From contig CAMEOL010000002.1 in assembly GCA_945929765.1 (NCBI GenBank), positions 1 to 24,979 of the forward strand: DNA of 24,979 nt, read 5' to 3'. The translations under genes and the position numbers were made by a program. Below the pieces are notes generated by a model, which was not told the DNA's origin, did no database searches, and was given only the letters and a program-made list of their open reading frames with translations. How positions within the stretch are numbered: the stretch's first letter is position 1; every line of letters starts with the position of its first letter. Positions 1,928-20,207 of the stretch are shown here, piece by piece. The stretch is from an uncultured Gemella sp. (GTDB taxonomy: Bacteria > Bacillota > Bacilli > Staphylococcales > Gemellaceae).

Positions 1928-3418
1928 TTAGTTGTTAAGTTTATTTTTTAAAACTTCTATATCATCTGCTAAAGAACTGTCTTCAGTTTTTGTTTCAGAA
2001 ATTTTAGATATTGCATAAAAAATAGTTGAGTGATCTTTATTAAAACTTTTGCCTATTGCTGGTAAAGAAAGTTCAGTTAAATCACGACATAAATATATAG
2101 CCATCATACGAGCGTTAACTATATCTTTACTTCTTTTAGCAGAAAGAAGATCACTAACAGAAACATTGTAATGTTCAGAAACTACATTAATGATTTTAGT
2201 AGGGTCTATTTTTTTCTTAATAATATTAACACGTTTTTTTACGATAGATTCGGCTGTTGTTAGATTCGGCTTTTCGTTAGGTTTTGTAAGGAATTTTAAT
2301 TCTTTTACTATACCTTCTAATTCTCTAATATTTCTATTTGTATTTTGATGAATATTACCTGCAATAAAACTCATAACTGCTTCGTCTAATTCTAAATTAA
2401 CTTCTTTACATTTTAGTTTAAGAATAGCAGTTATTGTTTCGTATCCTGGTGGGGTAATATCAGCAGTAATACCTGATTCAAATCTAGAAACTAATCTATC
2501 TTCTAATTCATCTAGTTGTGAAGGAGATCTATCGCTTATAAGAACAATTTGTTTGTTATTTAATTGTAAATCATTAAAAGTATGGAAAAATGCATTTTGT
2601 GTTTCATTTTTACCAACTAAAAATTGAATATCATCTATTAATAAAGCATCAACTTGTCGATATTTTTTTTGGAAAGCTTCATTAATTTTTGTATCTTGAG
2701 TATTACCACCAGTGTTAATAAGACGCATAAAATCCGTTAAAAATTGTTCAGACGTAACACATTCAATTTTAAATTCAGGATGTTCTTTTTCTAATTCATT
2801 ACCAATAGCGTGTAATAAGTGTGTTTTTCCTAATCCAACTCCACCATAAATAAATACAGGGTTATATTGTCCAGGATACATAGCTACTGTATGTGCAATA
2901 TTATGAGCATATTGGTTACCTTCACCTACAATAAAATTTTCAAAAGTAAAATTTTTATTTAGCGAAGGATTGTGTTTTGATGTAGAAGTTATTTTCGGTT
3001 CAGGAGCTTTATAATCATCTAAAGAAAAAGATTGTTTTTGATAAAAATTTTGAGCTCCAGAAGGCTTATCTTTAGCTAAAAAATTGTTCAGTATTAATTG
3101 TTCAGAAGAAATAGAATCGGATTCTTTCTTTCTTTTATCTTCAATAAAGTTATTGTTGTTATCAACATAATCATAAAAAACGACAAAATTAAGCCCGGTA
3201 TTATTTTTTAAGGCATTTTTTATTTCATTGTCAAAAAAGTTTTCTAAATAATTAGAAATAAGAGAATTAGAACTAACGATAGAAACAGTAAGATTTTTAA
3301 AATCAACATTATCAATAGAACTATTTAAAAACCAAGTATTAAGAACATCTTCATTAACTATTTCATTTTCTTTAAAATGCTTTAAAATATTTTCCCAAAG
3401 AAAATTAGCATTACTCAT
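1928..3418 (-). CDS. dnaA: Chromosomal replication initiator DnaA
   Basis: The 496-residue protein is the AAA+ initiator that binds DnaA boxes and melts oriC. Domain I is at about 1-85, a variable asparagine/serine-rich linker at about 86-150, and the AAA+ domain starts near 155. The AAA+ domain shows Walker A GGVGLGKT (192-199), Walker B LLIDDIQF (259-266) and a sensor/arginine-finger region around SRFESG (311-316). The C-terminal domain IV has the DNA-binding signature KDHSTI (461-466). The frame is open 18 codons further upstream, but ATG at 3418 is the likely start: a perfect GGAGGTGA lies just ahead of it, and the upstream extension would overlap the promoter and a DnaA box. dnaN follows. 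Certain. Confidence 0.98.
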   Translation of the reverse strand: MSNANFLWENILKHFKENEIVNEDVLNTWFLNSSIDNVDFKNLTVSIVSSNSLISNYLENFFDNEIKNALKNNTGLNFVVFYDYVDNNNNFIEDKRKKESDSISSEQLILNNFLAKDKPSGAQNFYQKQSFSLDDYKAPEPKITSTSKHNPSLNKNFTFENFIVGEGNQYAHNIAHTVAMYPGQYNPVFIYGGVGLGKTHLLHAIGNELEKEHPEFKIECVTSEQFLTDFMRLINTGGNTQDTKINEAFQKKYRQVDALLIDDIQFLVGKNETQNAFFHTFNDLQLNNKQIVLISDRSPSQLDELEDRLVSRFESGITADITPPGYETITAILKLKCKEVNLELDEAVMSFIAGNIHQNTNRNIRELEGIVKELKFLTKPNEKPNLTTAESIVKKRVNIIKKKIDPTKIINVVSEHYNVSVSDLLSAKRSKDIVNARMMAIYLCRDLTELSLPAIGKSFNKDHSTIFYAISKISETKTEDSSLADDIEVLKNKLNN

Positions 3419-3445
3419 AAAGTCACCTCCAAAAAGTCTATAAAA

Positions 3446-3474
3446 ATAATAACATAAAAAAAGTTTTTCCACAA
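3446..3474 (-). promoter_or_regulatory. dnaA promoter overlapped by a DnaA box
   Basis: On the minus strand, -35 TTGTGG (3474-3469), a 17-base spacer and -10 TATTAT (3451-3446) preceded by TGT (extended -10). The -35 lies inside the DnaA box at 3465-3473, so bound DnaA should repress its own gene. This is inferred from position. Confidence 0.6.
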
Positions 3475-3776
3475 GTTGTTAATATTTTTTTGAAAAATGT
3501 TAATAACTAAAAAAATAAAGATAAAAATTCTGTGGAAAACTAGAATATTAAAAAGAAAAAATTAGTATTCAAATAAATTTTCCACAAGAAATATAACACA
3601 TAAAAGACATATATATAAAAGAAAAAGAAGTTTTTAACAAATTTTAAAAAGCTGTGGAAAACTAAAATGTTAGAAGTTTTTGTTTTTGTGGAAAACTGTG
3701 TTAAAAATGTGGAAAATTTTAATTGTAAGTGAAGCTTTTTAATAAGTTTTCAAAAGAAAACTTATATTTTTCCACA
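3465..3776. other. oriC: cluster of seven DnaA boxes upstream of dnaA
   Basis: Seven exact copies of TTTTCCACA occur: forward at 3465-3473, 3578-3586 and 3768-3776; reverse at 3531-3539, 3653-3661, 3687-3695 and 3708-3716. Every copy has T rather than A at position 3 of the textbook TTATCCACA. Exact copies also occur twice in the dnaA-dnaN gap. The density and mixed orientation mark the upstream half of the origin. Confidence 0.9.
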
Positions 3777-4004
3777 AATAATACTTTGTAATTTTCTTTT
3801 TTTAAAAGAAATAGTAGAAAATATAGAAGTATATTAATACATTTTCAATTTATACTATAATTAACTATTAAAGATAATTTATTATACTTTGGTCATTGAT
3901 AATTATAGAATATTTAAGTTTTTTTATTGTTTGTTGGGAATGTCATATTTACAATATACGAAGAAAAAATTTTTGTGAAAAAGAGGGAAAATTAGCTTAA
4001 AGTC
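3777..4004. other. Intergenic DNA between the DnaA-box cluster and rpmH; nothing further recognised
   Basis: About 230 bases of AT-rich sequence with no open frame of note, no DnaA box and no clear hairpin. It probably serves as the right flank of the origin and the upstream region of the rpmH promoter. Confidence 0.5.
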
Positions 4005-4031
4005 TTGCATTTTTTATAATATTGTGATAAT
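4005..4031 (+). promoter_or_regulatory. rpmH promoter
   Basis: TTGCAT (4005-4010) and GATAAT (4026-4031) with an extended TGT element in front, spacer 15 bases. An alternative is TTAGCT (3992-3997) with TATAAT (4015-4020), spacer 17. One or both should drive the ribosomal protein gene. Confidence 0.5.
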
Positions 4032-4086
4032 ATTTTATAGTTATTACATCTATCTTTATAAAAAATACTACTCGAGGAGGACTAAA

Positions 4087-4221
4087 ATGAAACGTACGTA
4101 TCAACCAAATAAAAGAAAACATTCAAAAGTTCACGGATTTAGAGCTCGTATGAGTACTAAAAACGGACGTAAAGTATTAGCTAGACGTAGAGCTAAAGGA
4201 AGAAAAGTTCTATCAGCATAA
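4087..4221 (+). CDS. rpmH: 50S ribosomal protein L34
   Basis: The 44-residue, strongly basic protein begins MKRTYQPN and ends KGRKVLSA, the universal L34 pattern, with the conserved HGFRARM region at about 16-22. L34 is a small protein of the large ribosomal subunit. The frame is open further upstream from a GTG at 4024, but ATG at 4087 is the real start because a GAGGAGG ribosome-binding site (4074-4080) lies directly before it and L34 is always about 44-46 residues. It is divergent from dnaA and followed by rnpA, the classical origin neighbourhood. Certain. Confidence 0.98.
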
Positions 4222-4240
4222 TAGTTTAAATAAATAATAT

Positions 4241-4276
4241 AGAGATCTAGAATTAAAAATTTTAGATCTCTTTTTT
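4241..4276 (+). terminator. Terminator between rpmH and rnpA
   Basis: AGAGATCTAGAATT (4241-4254) pairs with AATTTTAGATCTCT (4258-4271) except for one G-T, with a three-base loop and a T run to 4276. It should strongly reduce readthrough, leaving rnpA to its own promoter. Confidence 0.8.
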
Positions 4277-4298
4277 CATGAATATTTTAATAAGATAG

Positions 4299-4327
4299 TT
4301 GTAAAAAAAAATATAAACTGTTAAAAT
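4299..4327 (+). promoter_or_regulatory. rnpA promoter
   Basis: TTGTAA (4299-4304), a 17-base spacer, then TAAAAT (4322-4327). It sits 24 bases before the rnpA start and downstream of the rpmH terminator. Confidence 0.6.
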
Positions 4328-4350
4328 ATACTACATAGAAAGGTTTTAAA

Positions 4351-4698
4351 ATGAAAAAAGAATATCGAGTAAAAAAAAGTACTGAATTTGATCGTATAAT
4401 AAAAGAAAAAAAATCTTTTGCAAATAGGCAGTTTGTAATTTATTATAGTAAAAATAATGAAAATCATATGCGTTTAGGAATATCAGTGAGCAAAAAATTA
4501 GGAAAAGCTCATGAAAGAAACAAACTAAAAAGATATGTTCGTGAAAATTTTAATAAAAAGAAAGATTTAATTAAATCTTATGATATTATTATTATAGTTC
4601 GTCAAGGAGCTGTAGGAATAGATTTTGATCAATTTAGTAATTCTATAAATCATATTTTAATAAAAACAAAATTATATAAAGAGAAGAGGCGTAAATAA
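4351..4698 (+). CDS. rnpA: Ribonuclease P protein component
   Basis: The 115-residue basic protein is the protein subunit of RNase P, which with its catalytic RNA removes 5' leaders from pre-tRNAs. The family signature is clear: LGISVSKKLGKAHERNKLKR at about 47-66 includes the RNR-type helix that binds RNA, and the N-terminal MKKEYRVKKSTEFDRI is typical. The start ATG follows AGAAAGG. The stop overlaps the start of jag by one base (TAATG), which indicates translational coupling. In most Firmicutes the membrane insertase gene yidC/spoIIIJ lies between these two; here it is absent. Certain. Confidence 0.97.
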   Translation: MKKEYRVKKSTEFDRIIKEKKSFANRQFVIYYSKNNENHMRLGISVSKKLGKAHERNKLKRYVRENFNKKKDLIKSYDIIIIVRQGAVGIDFDQFSNSINHILIKTKLYKEKRRK

Positions 4699-15435: not shown

Positions 15436-16758
15436 TTGAATTATAATGGGAAATCGTTAGAAGAAATTAATGGAACGATAGAAATACCTAAAAAAGCTAG
15501 TTTTTTGAAAAAGCTATTTATTTTTACCGGACCGGGTGTATTAGTTTCTGTAGGGTATATGGATCCAGGTAATTGGATAACATCTATAGCTGGTGGAGCA
15601 CAATATTCATATACACTTCTTTTTGTAATTTTATTTTCTAGCATTATTGCTATGATATTACAAAGTATGGCAGCTAGACTAGGAATAGTAACAGGAATGG
15701 ATTTGGCACAAGCTACAAGAAGAAACGTAGGAAAAAAATCAGGTGTGATTTTATGGATTATTACAGAATTAGCTATTATGGCTACAGATATAGCAGAAAT
15801 TATAGGAAGTGCTATTGCACTTAATTTATTATTCGGAATACCTTTGTTATTGGGTGTTTTTATAACTATATTGGATGTATTTTTATTGTTATTATTAATG
15901 AAGTTTGGTTTTAGAAAAATAGAAGCAATAGTTGCAACGTTAATAATTACAATTTTTGCTGTATTTTTTTATGAAGTTTATTTAGCTACTCCTAATGTAC
16001 CTGATATAATAAATGGATTTATTCCATCTAAGACAGTATTTAATAATCAAGGAGCGTTGCTAATAGCATTAGGAATTGTTGGAGCAACAGTAATGCCTCA
16101 TAATTTATATTTACACTCTTCAATAGTTCAATCTAGAAACTATGATAGAAAAAATAAACAAGAAATAAAAGAAGCTATTAGGTTTGCAACGATAGATTCT
16201 AATATTCAATTGTTCATTGCTTTTATAGTTAATTGTTTATTATTAATATTAGGTGCTGCTTTATTTTTTGGTAAATCTGACACGTTAGGTCATTTTACAG
16301 AATTGTATAAAGCTTTGCAAGACGAGTCTATTGTAGGTGTAATAGCTTCACCGGTATTAAGTACGCTTTTTGCTATAGCATTATTAGCGTCAGGACAAAA
16401 TTCAACTATAACAGGGACATTATCTGGACAAATTGTTATGGAGGGTTTTATTAGAATAAAATTACCTGCATGGTTAAGAAGAATGATGACTAGATTGTTA
16501 GCTGTAACACCGGTAGTAATTTGTTTGTTAATTTTTGGTGACAATGAACAGGCGATCGAGAAATTGCTAATATATAGCCAAGTATTTTTAAGTATAGCTT
16601 TACCAATATCAGTAATACCATTAACTATTTTTACTTCTAATAAAAAAATAATGGGCGAATTTGTTGTTAGTAGTTTTATTAAATACCTTTCTTGGCTAAT
16701 AAGCATAGTTTTAGTAATATTAAATATGTGGTTAATATATTCTACATTCAGTGGATAA
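15436..16758 (+). CDS. mntH: Nramp-family divalent metal (manganese) transporter
   Basis: The 440-residue protein is a proton-coupled Mn2+/Fe2+ importer of the Nramp family with about eleven membrane helices. The metal-binding motifs are present: DPGNW (43-47) in helix 1 and MPHNLYLHS (220-228) in helix 6, the methionine and aspartate/asparagine of which hold the ion. [20 protein letters not shown] (about 318-337) is the conserved loop that follows. The only sensible start is TTG at 15436 behind AGAGAGGG; no ATG is in frame before the DPGN motif. The unusual start codon may lower expression. A promoter and candidate operator lie upstream and a shared terminator follows. Family certain; Mn2+ preference inferred. 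Confidence 0.93.
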
Positions 16759-16786: not shown

Positions 16787-16839
16787 TAAAAAAGCTACTA
16801 AAAAATCGATATTTTATCGTTTTTTTAGTAGCTTTTTTT
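16787..16839. terminator. Bidirectional terminator between mntH and the ABC exporter
   Basis: A very long hairpin: AAAAAGCTACTAAAAAA on the left pairs with TTTTTTTAGTAGCTTTTT on the right, with a small inner CGAT/ATCG stem (16807-16810, 16816-16819). A and T tracts on both flanks serve both strands. The ABC gene stop codon touches its right edge. Confidence 0.9.
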
Positions 16840-18436
16840 ATAATTGTACAATTTTATCACAAATTGATAAAGTGCTCTTGTTGTGAGAAATTATTAAAAT
16901 TATTTTATTTTCTTTTATTTGCTCTAATGTTTTTAGCAATTCAATTTCACTGAATATATCGATGTTTGAAGTAGCTTCATCTAAAATTAAAAGTTTTGAA
17001 TTGTTATAAAGAGAACGAGAAGTAGCTATTCTCTGTTTTTGTCCAGAAGAAACATTAGAACTCCTCTCCCCTATTATTTCACGTGTTCCTTTTTTAAGTG
17101 AAGAGACAAAGTTTGTTAAATTTGTGTTGTCAAAACTTTCTAATAATTTTTCTTTATTAATATTTTTATCGAATATAGTTACGTTACTTTCTAATGAAGA
17201 GTTGAATAAGTAACTTTCTTGCATAATAATAGAACTATTTTCTCGGAAATATTGAGTATCTATATTTTTTATATTAATATTATCTATAAGAATTTCTCCA
17301 TCTTCAACCGGTAAAAATTGCATAATTAATTTAGCTAACGTAGATTTTCCACTACCACTCTCACCACAAATACCGATTATTTCTCCTTTTCTCGCTGTGA
17401 ATGAAATATTGTCGACAACAACATTATCATTGTATTTGAACGATAGGTTGTTAATTTTCAACTCGTTAAATTCAACTTTTTTGTTTCCTTGTTCGGTAGA
17501 TTCTTCCATTTCAAGTAAATTAATAAATCTTGTACCTGCTGCCATAGTTTGACTAAGTGTTGATGCAAGATTCCCCATGTATAATACAGGAGTGAAAGAA
17601 ACGATATATAACGCAGTTAAAGTAATTATAGTATTAACATCAGTAATTAATTTAGTTGCAAATATTATAAAAATAATAATACTTAAATTGTATAAAACAG
17701 TTGTTAAGAAATTAATATTAATTTGAAATTGTGCTTTTTTATACGAACTAGTTGTCAGTAATTCTGTTTCTAATTTTAATTTTTCTTTTACGGCATGCAC
17801 TTTGTTATATTGAATAGTTTCAAAAATTGAGTAAGCTTCTTCAACTGATGAGTTATTGATGTTAGTTAAATTGTTTCTATAATCGTTTCCGTATAACTCC
17901 CCTTTTGTTTTTGAAAATATTGGTACAAAAAATCCAATAATAACATACAAAACAAAAACTATTAAAGAAAGTTTCACGTTAAACATTGCAATAAACAAAG
18001 TAACTGCTAAAGTTTGAATTACATATATTAAAAAAGGTGTTATAGTGTGCGCATAAAACACTTCTAATATTTCAATGTCGGTCATGATCATTGTCATATA
18101 GTCACCGGAACTATTTTTCGAAAAATTATTCATTGATAGTTTTTTGAATTTGTCTAATACTTTTAAACGTAAAACGTGTAAAATTTTAAACGCTACGTAG
18201 TGGTTTAATAGTTGTTCCGTATAACTAAAGAACCCTTTTAAAAATGCAAATGCTATTGTTGCTATGATGAGCAAACCAACAATCCACCCTTCTTTTAAAA
18301 AAATGGACGTTAATAAAAAAGTAATTACAACGACTGATAAATGCCCAAAACTACCAAATAATGTCGCTAAAAGCAGTTGTTTTTTTAAATCTTTTGCGAT
18401 TATAAGAAGTTTTTTTAAATTTTTTATTGTTAACAT
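16838..18436 (-). CDS. ABC exporter half-transporter, second subunit (CydC-like position)
   Basis: The 532-residue protein joins a six-helix membrane domain (about 15-300) to an ATPase domain. Walker A is GESGSGKST (358-366), Q-loop Q406 in IMQESYLF, Walker B LLILDEATSNID (482-493) with catalytic E487, and switch histidine H518. The signature is VSSGQ (462-466), one glycine short of LSGGQ. The chain stops right after the strand following the H-loop (CDKIVQL), so the usual 25-40 residue tail is missing. It begins on the last base of the upstream subunit gene (TAATG), so the two are coupled and surely form a heterodimer. I infer an iron- or heme-linked substrate from the Fur box. Confidence 0.85.
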   Translation of the reverse strand: MLTIKNLKKLLIIAKDLKKQLLLATLFGSFGHLSVVVITFLLTSIFLKEGWIVGLLIIATIAFAFLKGFFSYTEQLLNHYVAFKILHVLRLKVLDKFKKLSMNNFSKNSSGDYMTMIMTDIEILEVFYAHTITPFLIYVIQTLAVTLFIAMFNVKLSLIVFVLYVIIGFFVPIFSKTKGELYGNDYRNNLTNINNSSVEEAYSIFETIQYNKVHAVKEKLKLETELLTTSSYKKAQFQININFLTTVLYNLSIIIFIIFATKLITDVNTIITLTALYIVSFTPVLYMGNLASTLSQTMAAGTRFINLLEMEESTEQGNKKVEFNELKINNLSFKYNDNVVVDNISFTARKGEIIGICGESGSGKSTLAKLIMQFLPVEDGEILIDNINIKNIDTQYFRENSSIIMQESYLFNSSLESNVTIFDKNINKEKLLESFDNTNLTNFVSSLKKGTREIIGERSSNVSSGQKQRIATSRSLYNNSKLLILDEATSNIDIFSEIELLKTLEQIKENKIILIISHNKSTLSICDKIVQL

Positions 18437-20160
18437 TAGTTATTCTCCTTTGCAAAAAATTTATTTTTTAAAAGTAGTTGCTCTTCTAACAATTTGTTAA
18501 ATAAATTATTGTTGTTTATTAATTCAGAGTAATTTCCGTTTTCGATTATTTCACCGTTTTGTAAAACGTAAATGTTATCGCAAGTTTTCATTACTTCTAA
18601 ATCGTGAGAAATTATAATTATAATTTTATTTTCTCTAATACTATCAAACGCGTCGAGAACACATTGTTTGCTGTAATCATCTATATTAGAGACAGCCTCG
18701 TCTAAAATATAAATGTAGCTATTTTTCAGTATTGCTTTTGCTGCGATTAAACGTTGTCTTTGTCCACCTGATAAATTGTTAGCACCTTCGGTTAATTTAT
18801 AATTCAGTCCACCATTTTCTAGAACAAAATTTTTCAAATTAACTTTTTCTAATGCAGCAAACATTTCTTTTTCGGTAATGTTTTCGTTAACTTTCAGATG
18901 ATTGTATATAGTGTCAGAGTTTAAATAACTTTCACTAGAAATAACGGTCATTAATTTAGTTAGCTCGTTAAAAGGTATTATATTTGTTTCGTAATTATCA
19001 TAGACTACAGTTCCAATATTCGCTTTTCTAAGTCCCATTATTAGTTTAATAATAGTCGATTTACCACTGCCGCTTTCTCCTACTATAGCAGTTTTTGTTG
19101 AATTTTTGAAAGACATATTGATATTTTTCAAAATAGTTTTATTTTCGTTATAGCTAAATGTAACATCTTTAAAATAAATAGTTTTATTGTTAGCAAGAGT
19201 TATAGAGTTATCTTTTTCGTCTTCTTGATAGTCTAGTAATTTATAGATATTGTCTAGTTCTACGCTAGCTTTCATAGAAATGTGGAATAAGCCACCTAAA
19301 GCTCGTAATGGTCTAAAACATTCGAAACTAGCTACTATTACAAAAATAATAAGCATACTTTCTTTGACGATAAAAATAGAAATTATTGACATCGTGAAAA
19401 TAGAAATGTATGTAATAGCGTCCATTACGTTTATAGAATTAAGTTGGTGTTTTAGTAATGCCATAGTAGAAACTCTATATTTTTCACTTCGTTTATCAAT
19501 TTCTCGTGTAACATTATTTTCCTTACCATAAATTTTCGCAACAGAGAATCCCTTTAACCTATCGAAAAAAAGTTCGGTTAAACTTAAAAAATCACTAAAA
19601 GTTTTTTTGTTTACTTTTTTAGATTTTTTCATAATCATCATAATAGATATTGGTATTAAAGGATATAAGAAAAGCATAGCAACGCTTAACCAAATACTAA
19701 TATTACCAAAGATAACTAGCGAACTAATTATGATGAAGAGTGTAGAGAAAACTTGTGGAATAAATTTGCTAAAATATAATTCTATACTTGGAATAGATGT
19801 AGAATTTATAACTAGCAAACTACTCGTAGGAATAGCTTCAGTATAATTTAACGATAATTTTTCTATTTTACTATAAATTTCTGAACGTAAAATGTTTCTA
19901 ATTTTTGTAGAAATAACGTGACTTAATTTGTTATCCAAAAATAACGATAAATAGTATATAATTAAAATCAAAATAGTTCTGCCGAAAAAGAAATACCAAA
20001 AATTAGTATTGATGTTGTTATTTAATATCTTAAAAAGCAGATCAACAAAATTGTAAGAAAATGCTAAAAAAGAAAGGAATGCAACAATACGACAAACAAT
20101 TAAGTAATTGATTTCTTTTTTTATGTTGAAGAGAGCCATAGCTCGTTTATCAATTTTCAT
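18436..20160 (-). CDS. CydD-like ABC exporter half-transporter, first subunit
   Basis: The 574-residue protein has a membrane domain (about 15-300) whose motifs follow CydD: LNYTEAIPTSSL (104-115), ELYFSKFIPQ (127-136), YPLIPISI (166-173), FFDRLKGFSVAKIYG (198-212) and CFRPLRALGGLFH (281-293). The ATPase domain has Walker A GESGSGKST (361-369), signature LSGGQRQR (463-470), Walker B with E488 and H519, but the Q-loop reads ISSESYL, with serine where glutamine is expected. CydDC of E. coli is needed for cytochrome bd and has been described as a heme or thiol transporter. No cyd oxidase genes are near, so another small iron-related substrate is possible. Start ATG follows AGGAGGATTAA. Confidence 0.87.
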   Translation of the reverse strand: MKIDKRAMALFNIKKEINYLIVCRIVAFLSFLAFSYNFVDLLFKILNNNINTNFWYFFFGRTILILIIYYLSLFLDNKLSHVISTKIRNILRSEIYSKIEKLSLNYTEAIPTSSLLVINSTSIPSIELYFSKFIPQVFSTLFIIISSLVIFGNISIWLSVAMLFLYPLIPISIMMIMKKSKKVNKKTFSDFLSLTELFFDRLKGFSVAKIYGKENNVTREIDKRSEKYRVSTMALLKHQLNSINVMDAITYISIFTMSIISIFIVKESMLIIFVIVASFECFRPLRALGGLFHISMKASVELDNIYKLLDYQEDEKDNSITLANNKTIYFKDVTFSYNENKTILKNINMSFKNSTKTAIVGESGSGKSTIIKLIMGLRKANIGTVVYDNYETNIIPFNELTKLMTVISSESYLNSDTIYNHLKVNENITEKEMFAALEKVNLKNFVLENGGLNYKLTEGANNLSGGQRQRLIAAKAILKNSYIYILDEAVSNIDDYSKQCVLDAFDSIRENKIIIIISHDLEVMKTCDNIYVLQNGEIIENGNYSELINNNNLFNKLLEEQLLLKNKFFAKENN

Positions 20161-20178
20161 TTAATCCTCCTATCTAAA

Positions 20179-20193
20179 TGATAATGATTATCA
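20179..20193. promoter_or_regulatory. Fur box, perfect 7-1-7 inverted repeat
   Basis: TGATAATGATTATCA equals the Bacillus Fur 7-1-7 consensus TGATAATnATTATCA at every position. PerR (TTATAAT) and Zur (TCGTAAT) arms fit worse. It lies between the -10 and the ribosome-binding site of the CydD-like gene, covering the expected transcription start, so iron-loaded Fur should repress the exporter operon. Confidence 0.9.
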
Positions 20194-20201
20194 ATAGAAA
20201 T

Positions 20202-20207
20202 ATTATA
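20202..20207 (-). promoter_or_regulatory. -10 of the CydDC-like operon
   Basis: TATAAT read on the minus strand (20207-20202), with a poor -35 (TACACT, 20230-20225) at 17 bases. It lies 8 bases upstream of the Fur box. Confidence 0.5.

Follow-up and report, generated by a model that had tools for sequence, protein, structure and literature searches.

The stretch of DNA analysed here, called the window throughout, is one whole contig (C2) of 24,979 nucleotides from an uncultured Gemella sp. (assembly GCA_945929765.1, G000 in our numbering, 1.14 Mb and 66% complete). Its minus strand carries two adjacent genes for half transporters of the ATP-binding cassette (ABC) type, referred to below as subunits A and B or simply as the pair, and a binding motif for the regulator Fur lies upstream of them. 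The features of the locus are:

18436..20160, minus strand: subunit A, 574 amino acids, a half transporter with a transmembrane domain (TMD) and a nucleotide-binding domain (NBD), on the CydD side (SiaD/Lmo1131-like), from the open reading frame (ORF), domain scan and trees
16838..18436, minus strand: subunit B, 532 amino acids, a TMD-NBD half transporter on the CydC side (SiaE/Lmo1132-like), from the ORF, domain scan and trees
20166..20170, minus strand: GGAGG, probable ribosome-binding site of A, read from the sequence
20179..20193, no strand assigned: perfect 7-1-7 Fur box, TGATAATGATTATCA, from a motif scan, with boxes of 0 to 2 mismatches in orthologues
20202..20207, minus strand: TATAAT, a -10-like hexamer at -47 to -42 of the A start
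16790..16837, no strand assigned: inverted repeat, rich in A+T and with T runs, in the space that separates the pair from the convergent gene mntH, read from the sequence

The two ORFs share one base (TAATG), and Pfam recognises an ABC_membrane and an ABC_tran domain in each product. In the window's family, that is, the window and 12 orthologous loci, the signature motif is LSGGQ in 12 of 13 A subunits and (V/I)SSGQ in all 13 B subunits, and the Walker B glutamate is present in both; the less canonical signature of B fits an asymmetric heterodimer. The inverted repeat is possibly a bidirectional terminator; a terminator scan reported none at these positions.

The initial annotation had described a two-gene half-transporter unit under a perfect Fur box, and the box was found exactly. 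It is a 15-base palindrome, the sole zero-mismatch match in the window, and it occupies -33 to -19 relative to the A start, 8 bases from the TATAAT hexamer. A sigma-70 promoter scan listed no promoter at that hexamer; it is plausible that the box overlies the transcription start of the pair. The whole assembly contains five exact boxes, where an order-1 model, trained on 76 kb of its sequence, predicts 0.06. Once up to two mismatches are allowed, there are 55 matches in the genome against 57 for a reversed-pattern control, so that only perfect or conserved boxes are meaningful. Within 300 bases of the A start (one locus, L056, offers just 73 upstream bases) a box was present in all 13 orthologous loci, with 0 mismatches in three, 1 in six and 2 in four, and the chance of an equally good box was 0 to 0.018 per locus (order-1 random sequence, 400 draws each). 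Its distance from the A start is -31 to -38 in six loci and -103 to -221 in seven; a motif that is retained while its distance shifts behaves as a regulatory site. Control of the pair by iron, through predicted binding of Fur, is probable on this evidence, as the initial annotation had held.

The other four perfect boxes lie 21-54 bases from their genes. On contig C7 the genes behind the box are those of a FecCD permease, one more ORF (outside the Pfam scan), an ABC ATPase and a binding protein; on C12 it precedes a protein of 1454 amino acids with NEAT domains and leucine-rich repeats; on C62 a redoxin, a Trep_Strep S component of an energy-coupling factor (ECF) transporter, a CbiQ-type T component and a double ATPase; and on C79 Shp, a Peripla_BP_2 protein and FecCD, with a fourth ORF truncated where the contig ends. 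All four perfect boxes other than that of the pair thus serve heme or iron importer modules of known type. The NEAT, Shp-Hts, ECF and pair modules are scattered in the genome, each behind its own perfect box. Five one-mismatch sites were listed, one before a ZnuA-type gene, one inside the ORF of a PF12641 flavodoxin (L009:872-1444) and the rest seemingly unrelated; the flavodoxin was dropped as a further Fur target, its box being internal to the ORF.

Kinship of the pair with CydDC, the second claim of the initial annotation, was borne out by both scores and trees. The best NCBIfam match of A is CydD (270 bits, cut-off 435), and B scores 228 bits against CydC (cut-off 329), about level with MsbA (231). 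A true CydD of the same genome, on C127, reaches 483 bits. Successive trees held 64 rows, 69 rows (15 long-branch or redundant rows removed; sia, Listeria, Fusobacterium and Subdoligranulum rows added) and 68 rows (19 removed; CydDC pairs, YbtPQ and the genome's own C6 pair added), and a concatenated tree held 33 pairs. In the 68-row tree all A-type subunits form one group (100/99) beside CydD (100/100), and all B-type subunits form one group (100/99) beside CydC (99/93; 92/59 in the 69-row tree). In the concatenated tree the pair family is held together at 100/100 and joined to CydDC at 100/100, and the approximately unbiased (AU) test of the concatenated data rejects a Gem+CydDC clade (p-AU 4e-6). 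Within the family the window branch is loosely placed, either as sister to all others (81/77, concatenated) or, for B, with the DUF454 and Fusobacterium pairs (94/79). On these trees the pair is placed outside CydDC, in a separate sister clade that also holds Listeria lmo1131-1132, pairs linked to DUF454 genes and the pair at the SiaD/SiaE position described below. The initial annotation had proposed a phylogeny against CydDC and YbtPQ as a check, and had named grouping with drug or peptide exporters as evidence against its proposal. YbtP and YbtQ group together and then with MsbA and MdlA/B (93/82), away from the pair, and grouping with exporters was not seen for MsbA, MdlA/B or the C6 pair, the only such proteins in the trees, which contain no dedicated peptide exporter.

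Structure-based searches contributed little. Among the best 60 rows of each PDB sequence search (A, B and their profiles), double-length P-glycoprotein-type chains came top, which is uninformative on subfamily. The AlphaFold models of A and B, made singly, are weak (pLDDT, the per-residue confidence score, 63.0 and 65.4). Among the 50 rows listed by Foldseek for B, MsbA and PCAT1 came top by E-value, CydC chains stood at ranks 24, 31 and 33 (TM-scores 0.53, 0.57 and 0.57, the highest listed being 0.57 and MsbA reaching 0.55) and IrtB chains at ranks 19, 28, 40 and 46 (0.49-0.53); these results were not decisive and were not used.

The absence of a cytochrome bd gene nearby, also noted initially, holds for the window and the 12 orthologous loci, where no CydA or CydB is encoded (control loci were positive), and does not hold for the genome, where cydA (split into two pieces at contig ends, C163 and C127), cydB and the CydD mentioned above are all present. 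For this reason the notion of a CydDC orphaned from its cytochrome was rejected. Of 15 further genomes with the pair that were searched, 14 have a CydD above cut-off (the exception, G456, had none at E<=1e-120), and cydA, cydB, cydD and cydC are consecutive in all 12 pair-bearing genomes fetched.

The substrate is suggested by the heme site of CydDC. In E. coli the heme iron is held by CydC H85 in transmembrane helix 2 (TM2) and CydD H312 in TM6, the propionates are bound at CydC R81 and R136, and H85A abolishes function (PMC10374445, PMC10691846; all papers are cited here by PMC number, from excerpts of their texts). We aligned 126 rows (43 A, 45 B, 15 CydD, 15 CydC and 8 outgroup), the CydC rows representing 14 distinct genes since the CydC of G616 is present twice. 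Three codons of the pair fall on this site:

18200..18202, minus strand: B His79, aligned with the axial ligand CydC H85
19282..19284, minus strand: A His293, aligned with the axial ligand CydD H312
18047..18049, minus strand: B His130, at the position of the propionate contact CydC R136

The H85 column is histidine in 45/45 B and 15/15 CydC rows and in one of 8 outgroup rows (YbtP), and the H312 column is histidine in 43/43 A, 15/15 CydD and 0/8 outgroup rows. At the R136 column all 45 B subunits have histidine, where CydC has R, K or T. Within the window's family histidine stands at the H85 column in A as well (13/13), which is mostly not so in other A subunits. With at most one miss, the family retains 6 of 24 CydD-invariant and 7 of 16 CydC-invariant TMD columns, so that retention of both heme ligands is more than general conservation. 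The heme-linked role suggested in the initial annotation thus gains from two sides, the invariant ligands and the relatives that lie within a heme operon.

Fourteen further genomes from the genus and family were searched, and 12 have the pair (E<=1e-60), the exceptions being G001 and G005; at the same threshold it is present in 0 of 45 genomes of the same order. None of the window genes around the pair accompanies it across all orthologous loci, a comparison made with window genes only. A profile search of 299 genomes of the class, which scored only the four best first-look candidates per genome, gave one relative other than CydD, a pair in G155; a second match, in G076, was ruled out as the CydD of a cydABDC row. 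A search of 398 class genomes with the ECF S component gave six matches including the window's own genome, and one of the other five (L104) has a pair adjoining. With the neighbouring B subunit of L104 as query, 38 of 246 genomes of one order matched; 20 of these regions were fetched, in addition to G402 and G155, which had been fetched earlier. Because the relatives were collected through their resemblance to a single sia-type B subunit, they are not a random sample of the clade. A scan of genome contigs gave three distant and uninformative matches.

These relatives occur in three contexts. In the first, the pair is followed by ECF S, T and A genes (L104, L143, L144, L145; S only in L142). 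In genus g39, which we infer to be Streptococcus, Shp is present in 7 of 265 genomes, and all seven have the order NEAT, Shp, HtsA, HtsB, HtsC, A, B, ECF S, T, A. This matches shp/siaA, siaB, siaC, siaD, siaE and siaF-H in PMC6593403, so A and B of these loci are named here by the SiaD/SiaE position, that is, by gene order and not by accession. In the second context the pair stands behind a DUF454 gene (10 loci) or alone; the lone type includes f64/g156, inferred to be Listeria from a Listeria monocytogenes record (L167) that is joined to L153 by very short branches. In the third (L155:6044-11974, G502, 59% GC), an HtsA/HtsB-like binding protein and permease and an ATPase precede a divergent long-branch pair. 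Closest in sequence to the window pair are a Fusobacterium pair and DUF454-type pairs, at 30-32% identity, with SiaDE next at 24-28%. The Fur box scan covered the orthologous, DUF454/lone, ECF-linked, Fusobacterium and Subdoligranulum loci, with the sia loci left out. Within 300 bases of the operon start a box of at most two mismatches was found in 7 of 14 DUF454/lone-pair loci (L152, L153, L154, L157, L159, L160, L167) and in one of five ECF-linked loci (L144).

Taken together, regulation, operon context and ligands make a heme flippase of an acquisition regulon the most economical account. We put the probability that the pair is a heterodimeric exporter-fold (type IV) ABC transporter for heme, an iron-tetrapyrrole, in a Fur-controlled heme-acquisition regulon at roughly 0.55. 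That heme is the substrate appears likely from the sequence evidence, and the pair probably helps these bacteria to handle heme as an iron source. In outline, iron-loaded Fur would cover the promoter of the pair, and iron shortage would lead to its production along with the NEAT surface protein, Shp-HtsABC and the heme-type ECF transporter. Membrane-lodged heme may then enter a lateral site between the TMDs, where B His79 and A His293 would hold it, B His130 standing in for the propionate-binding arginine, and an ATP-driven flip would carry it, by preference, toward the cytoplasm or inner leaflet.

Inward movement is somewhat favoured over outward, and we would give it slightly less than an even chance. 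It is suggested by the place of the pair in the uptake operon of the sia loci, by the Fur box and by E. faecalis CydDC, which was reported to contribute to heme import and was proposed as an importer in an account that also lists doubts (PMC9296619); an excerpt of PMC11282960 notes that validation of this import is lacking.

Several results weigh against the account given above. For CydDC of E. coli, the relative that has been studied best, the published model has heme moving outward (PMC10374445). No heme gene adjoins the pair in the window's family: Shp, HtsA/B and ECF S/T gave no match in the 13 orthologous loci, with control loci yielding the expected Cyd, Shp and Hts genes. The distribution of the pair and of Shp does not coincide, since G001 and G005, of the same genus as the window, lack the pair yet have a weak Shp match, and G002 (incomplete) and G006 have the pair with no Shp match. 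Seven of the 14 DUF454/lone-pair loci (L070, L148, L149, L150, L151, L156, L158) have only sites of 3-6 mismatches, L151 having a one-mismatch box farther upstream, before an extra ORF; no Fur box within two mismatches precedes the pairs of Fusobacterium and Subdoligranulum. The single-subunit AU tests reject neither GemA+CydD (p 0.159) nor GemB+CydC (p 0.063) at 0.05. At the heme site itself, CydC R81 is replaced by Q (His in Sia types), T88 by A and H132 by V, and CydD F247 by L and Y311 by F, and the retained ligands may be a legacy of common ancestry. Deletion of lmo1131-1132 lowers invasion of Caco-2 cells, and the excerpt of PMC5736727 describes these genes in terms of cell adhesion and invasion, not heme.

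The strongest alternative is that the pair is a heme efflux valve, exporting heme to guard the cell against the load from a derepressed uptake system. The ligands are the same as those of E. coli CydDC, for which export of heme to the periplasmic side is described (PMC10374445; PMC13337084), and Listeria FrvA shows that a protein required for haem resistance can be under Fur control (PMC3283593). We consider efflux unlikely, as is outward movement in general, since the pair lies inside an uptake operon in all seven sia loci and enterococcal HrtAB is induced by heme and not repressed by iron (PMC11282960). A section on genes repressed by heme names lmo1131-1132 as Fur-regulated (PMC6305404); should this apply to the pair, the response would be opposite to that expected of a detoxifying system. 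HrtAB-type efflux genes adjoining the pair were considered and rejected, the ABC/TetR neighbours scanned in L064 being DrrA/SagH/TetR-like.

A transporter, in either direction, for another iron-linked small molecule, such as a siderophore (as in YbtPQ/IrtAB) or a heme breakdown product, is improbable. It would fit the iron control, the existence of exporter-fold siderophore importers, the divergent pair of L155 behind a binding-protein/FecCD-type importer, and the Fusobacterium pair that precedes a PF12641 flavodoxin. The pair, however, falls outside the YbtPQ group, its Pfam matches include no siderophore-interacting domain (siderophore biosynthesis genes were not searched for), and with an iron-free bilin its two iron-coordinating histidines would be idle. 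A second CydDC, exporting reductant or heme for cytochrome bd assembly, that merely gained a Fur box is very improbable: its status as sister group, the CydD model as best score of A and the single-subunit AU tests all permit it, and against it both subunits score under the curated cut-offs, all 13 loci lack CydA/CydB, and genomes with the pair carry complete cydABDC rows (12/12 fetched) and a true CydD (14/15 others searched). Least probable of all is that the pair is an ordinary exporter of multidrug or peptide type whose Fur box arose by chance. The shared fold speaks for this, as do the P-glycoproteins, MsbA and PCAT1 at the top of the PDB sequence and fold searches (best 60 and 50 rows); against it stand the trees, which part the pair from MsbA, MdlA/B and the C6 pair, the sole exporters of this sort that they contain, and the box kept in 13 of 13 loci.

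Some neighbouring genes are recorded here as observations. The Nramp gene mntH (15436-16758 in the window) is convergent with the pair, and Nramp genes at L070:10749-12320 (G155) and L148:2266-3870 (G453) are divergent from a DUF454-pair row. The DUF454 (YbaN-like) gene is directly 5' of the pair in L070, L148, L150, L151, L154 and L156-L160, and L141 (G411) has B with ECF S, T and A and no A subunit recognised upstream, possibly a broken or half system. Next downstream of the pair in G007 is a thiol-activated cytolysin family gene (PF01289, L058:12680-14224), and genes of similar length occupy the equivalent place in G010 (L059:5151-6695) and G012 (L060:12349-13890). The flavodoxin 3' of the Fusobacterium vincentii pair (L161:10398-10907) has a possible tie to heme breakdown, and a protein of 102 amino acids of the ABM family (PF03992, L167:7492-7800) lies opposite the end of the L. 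monocytogenes pair; heme monooxygenases have an ABM-type fold. The plasmid collection gave matches in Rhizobium/Agrobacterium, Lachnospira and Ilyobacter, the last with a neighbouring iron ABC permease. NZ_CP084075.1 (Fusobacterium, 2.1 Mb) and NZ_CP030101.1 (Listeria, 2.9 Mb) are chromosome-sized records filed as PLSDB plasmids, nearly without a gene table. Elsewhere in the window (1928-4698), dnaA and dnaN on the minus strand face jag and mnmE on the plus strand, the GC skew changes near 3-4 kb, and the gap between them is probably a replication origin.

A broader proposal, which we regard as more doubtful than inward movement of heme by the window pair, is that SiaDE, Lmo1131-1132, the DUF454-linked pairs and the window pair, a branch of the CydDC superfamily that is widespread and under iron control, constitute an exporter-fold heme importer that flips membrane heme inward beside ECF and HtsABC transporters. 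If true, it would use the same two-histidine heme clamp as cytochrome bd assembly in the opposite direction. For siaD/siaE and lmo1131-1132, which lie in iron regulons, the conserved clamp offers one testable substrate, and the direction in which CydDC-type transporters work, outward in E. coli and by proposal inward in E. faecalis, becomes directly testable in paralogues that share a cell.

YbtPQ and IrtAB, the exporter-fold siderophore importers, have a type IV fold and an iron-regulated context, and IrtA carries a siderophore-interacting domain. YbtPQ differs from the window pair in falling with MsbA and MdlA/B in the trees, and the window pair differs from IrtA in having no such domain among its Pfam matches. 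CydDC (cydDC of E. coli K-12 and cydABDC of Bacilli) resembles the pair as a heterodimer, is its sister subunit by subunit and has both axial histidines; the pair differs in being unlinked to cydAB, in its Fur box, in altered heme-site residues and in its separate clade, and both types occur in one genome.

The closest known systems do not leave the pair an undescribed system, as had first been supposed, since they are already in print. In S. pyogenes, shp/siaA, siaB, siaC, siaD, siaE ('putative ABC transporter') and siaF-H (ECF) are listed in the MtsR regulon (PMC6593403), and the iron-regulated sia operon is given as 10 genes, with Shr, Shp and SiaABC as its well-studied products (PMC12796733). 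The SiaD/SiaE-position pair is of the same clade as the window pair, has both heme ligands and stands with NEAT, Shp, HtsABC and ECF genes, scattered relatives of which are under perfect Fur boxes in the window's genome. The sia genes, however, form one row, whereas the window pair is a separate two-gene unit under a Fur box; the 13 loci of its family gave no ECF S/T match, and in the window's genome the ECF genes follow a perfect box of their own on a different contig. Listeria monocytogenes lmo1131-1132, with which L167 is equated by a neighbouring 'lmo1136 family internalin' annotation, is like the window pair in clade (LmA/LmB) and in its stand-alone arrangement, at about 30% identity; the L167 box has one mismatch and lies at -172, farther from the start than that of the window. 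Of these genes, lmo1131 is given as 'CydD-like' with values 9.93/5.97 and a Fur box, lmo1132 as 'MdlB-like', and the two as Fur-derepressed (PMC4481299). The two are named as Fur-regulated in a section on genes repressed by heme exposure (PMC6305404), their transcription falls without oxygen (PMC5736727), and an lmo1131 insertion strain is among the Fur-locus mutants of PMC3283593. In the open-licence PMC literature we found no paper joining SiaDE, lmo1131-1132 and the CydDC heme ligands. The genes and their iron control have thus been published for Listeria and group A Streptococcus, and what is new here is their unification and the conserved heme site.

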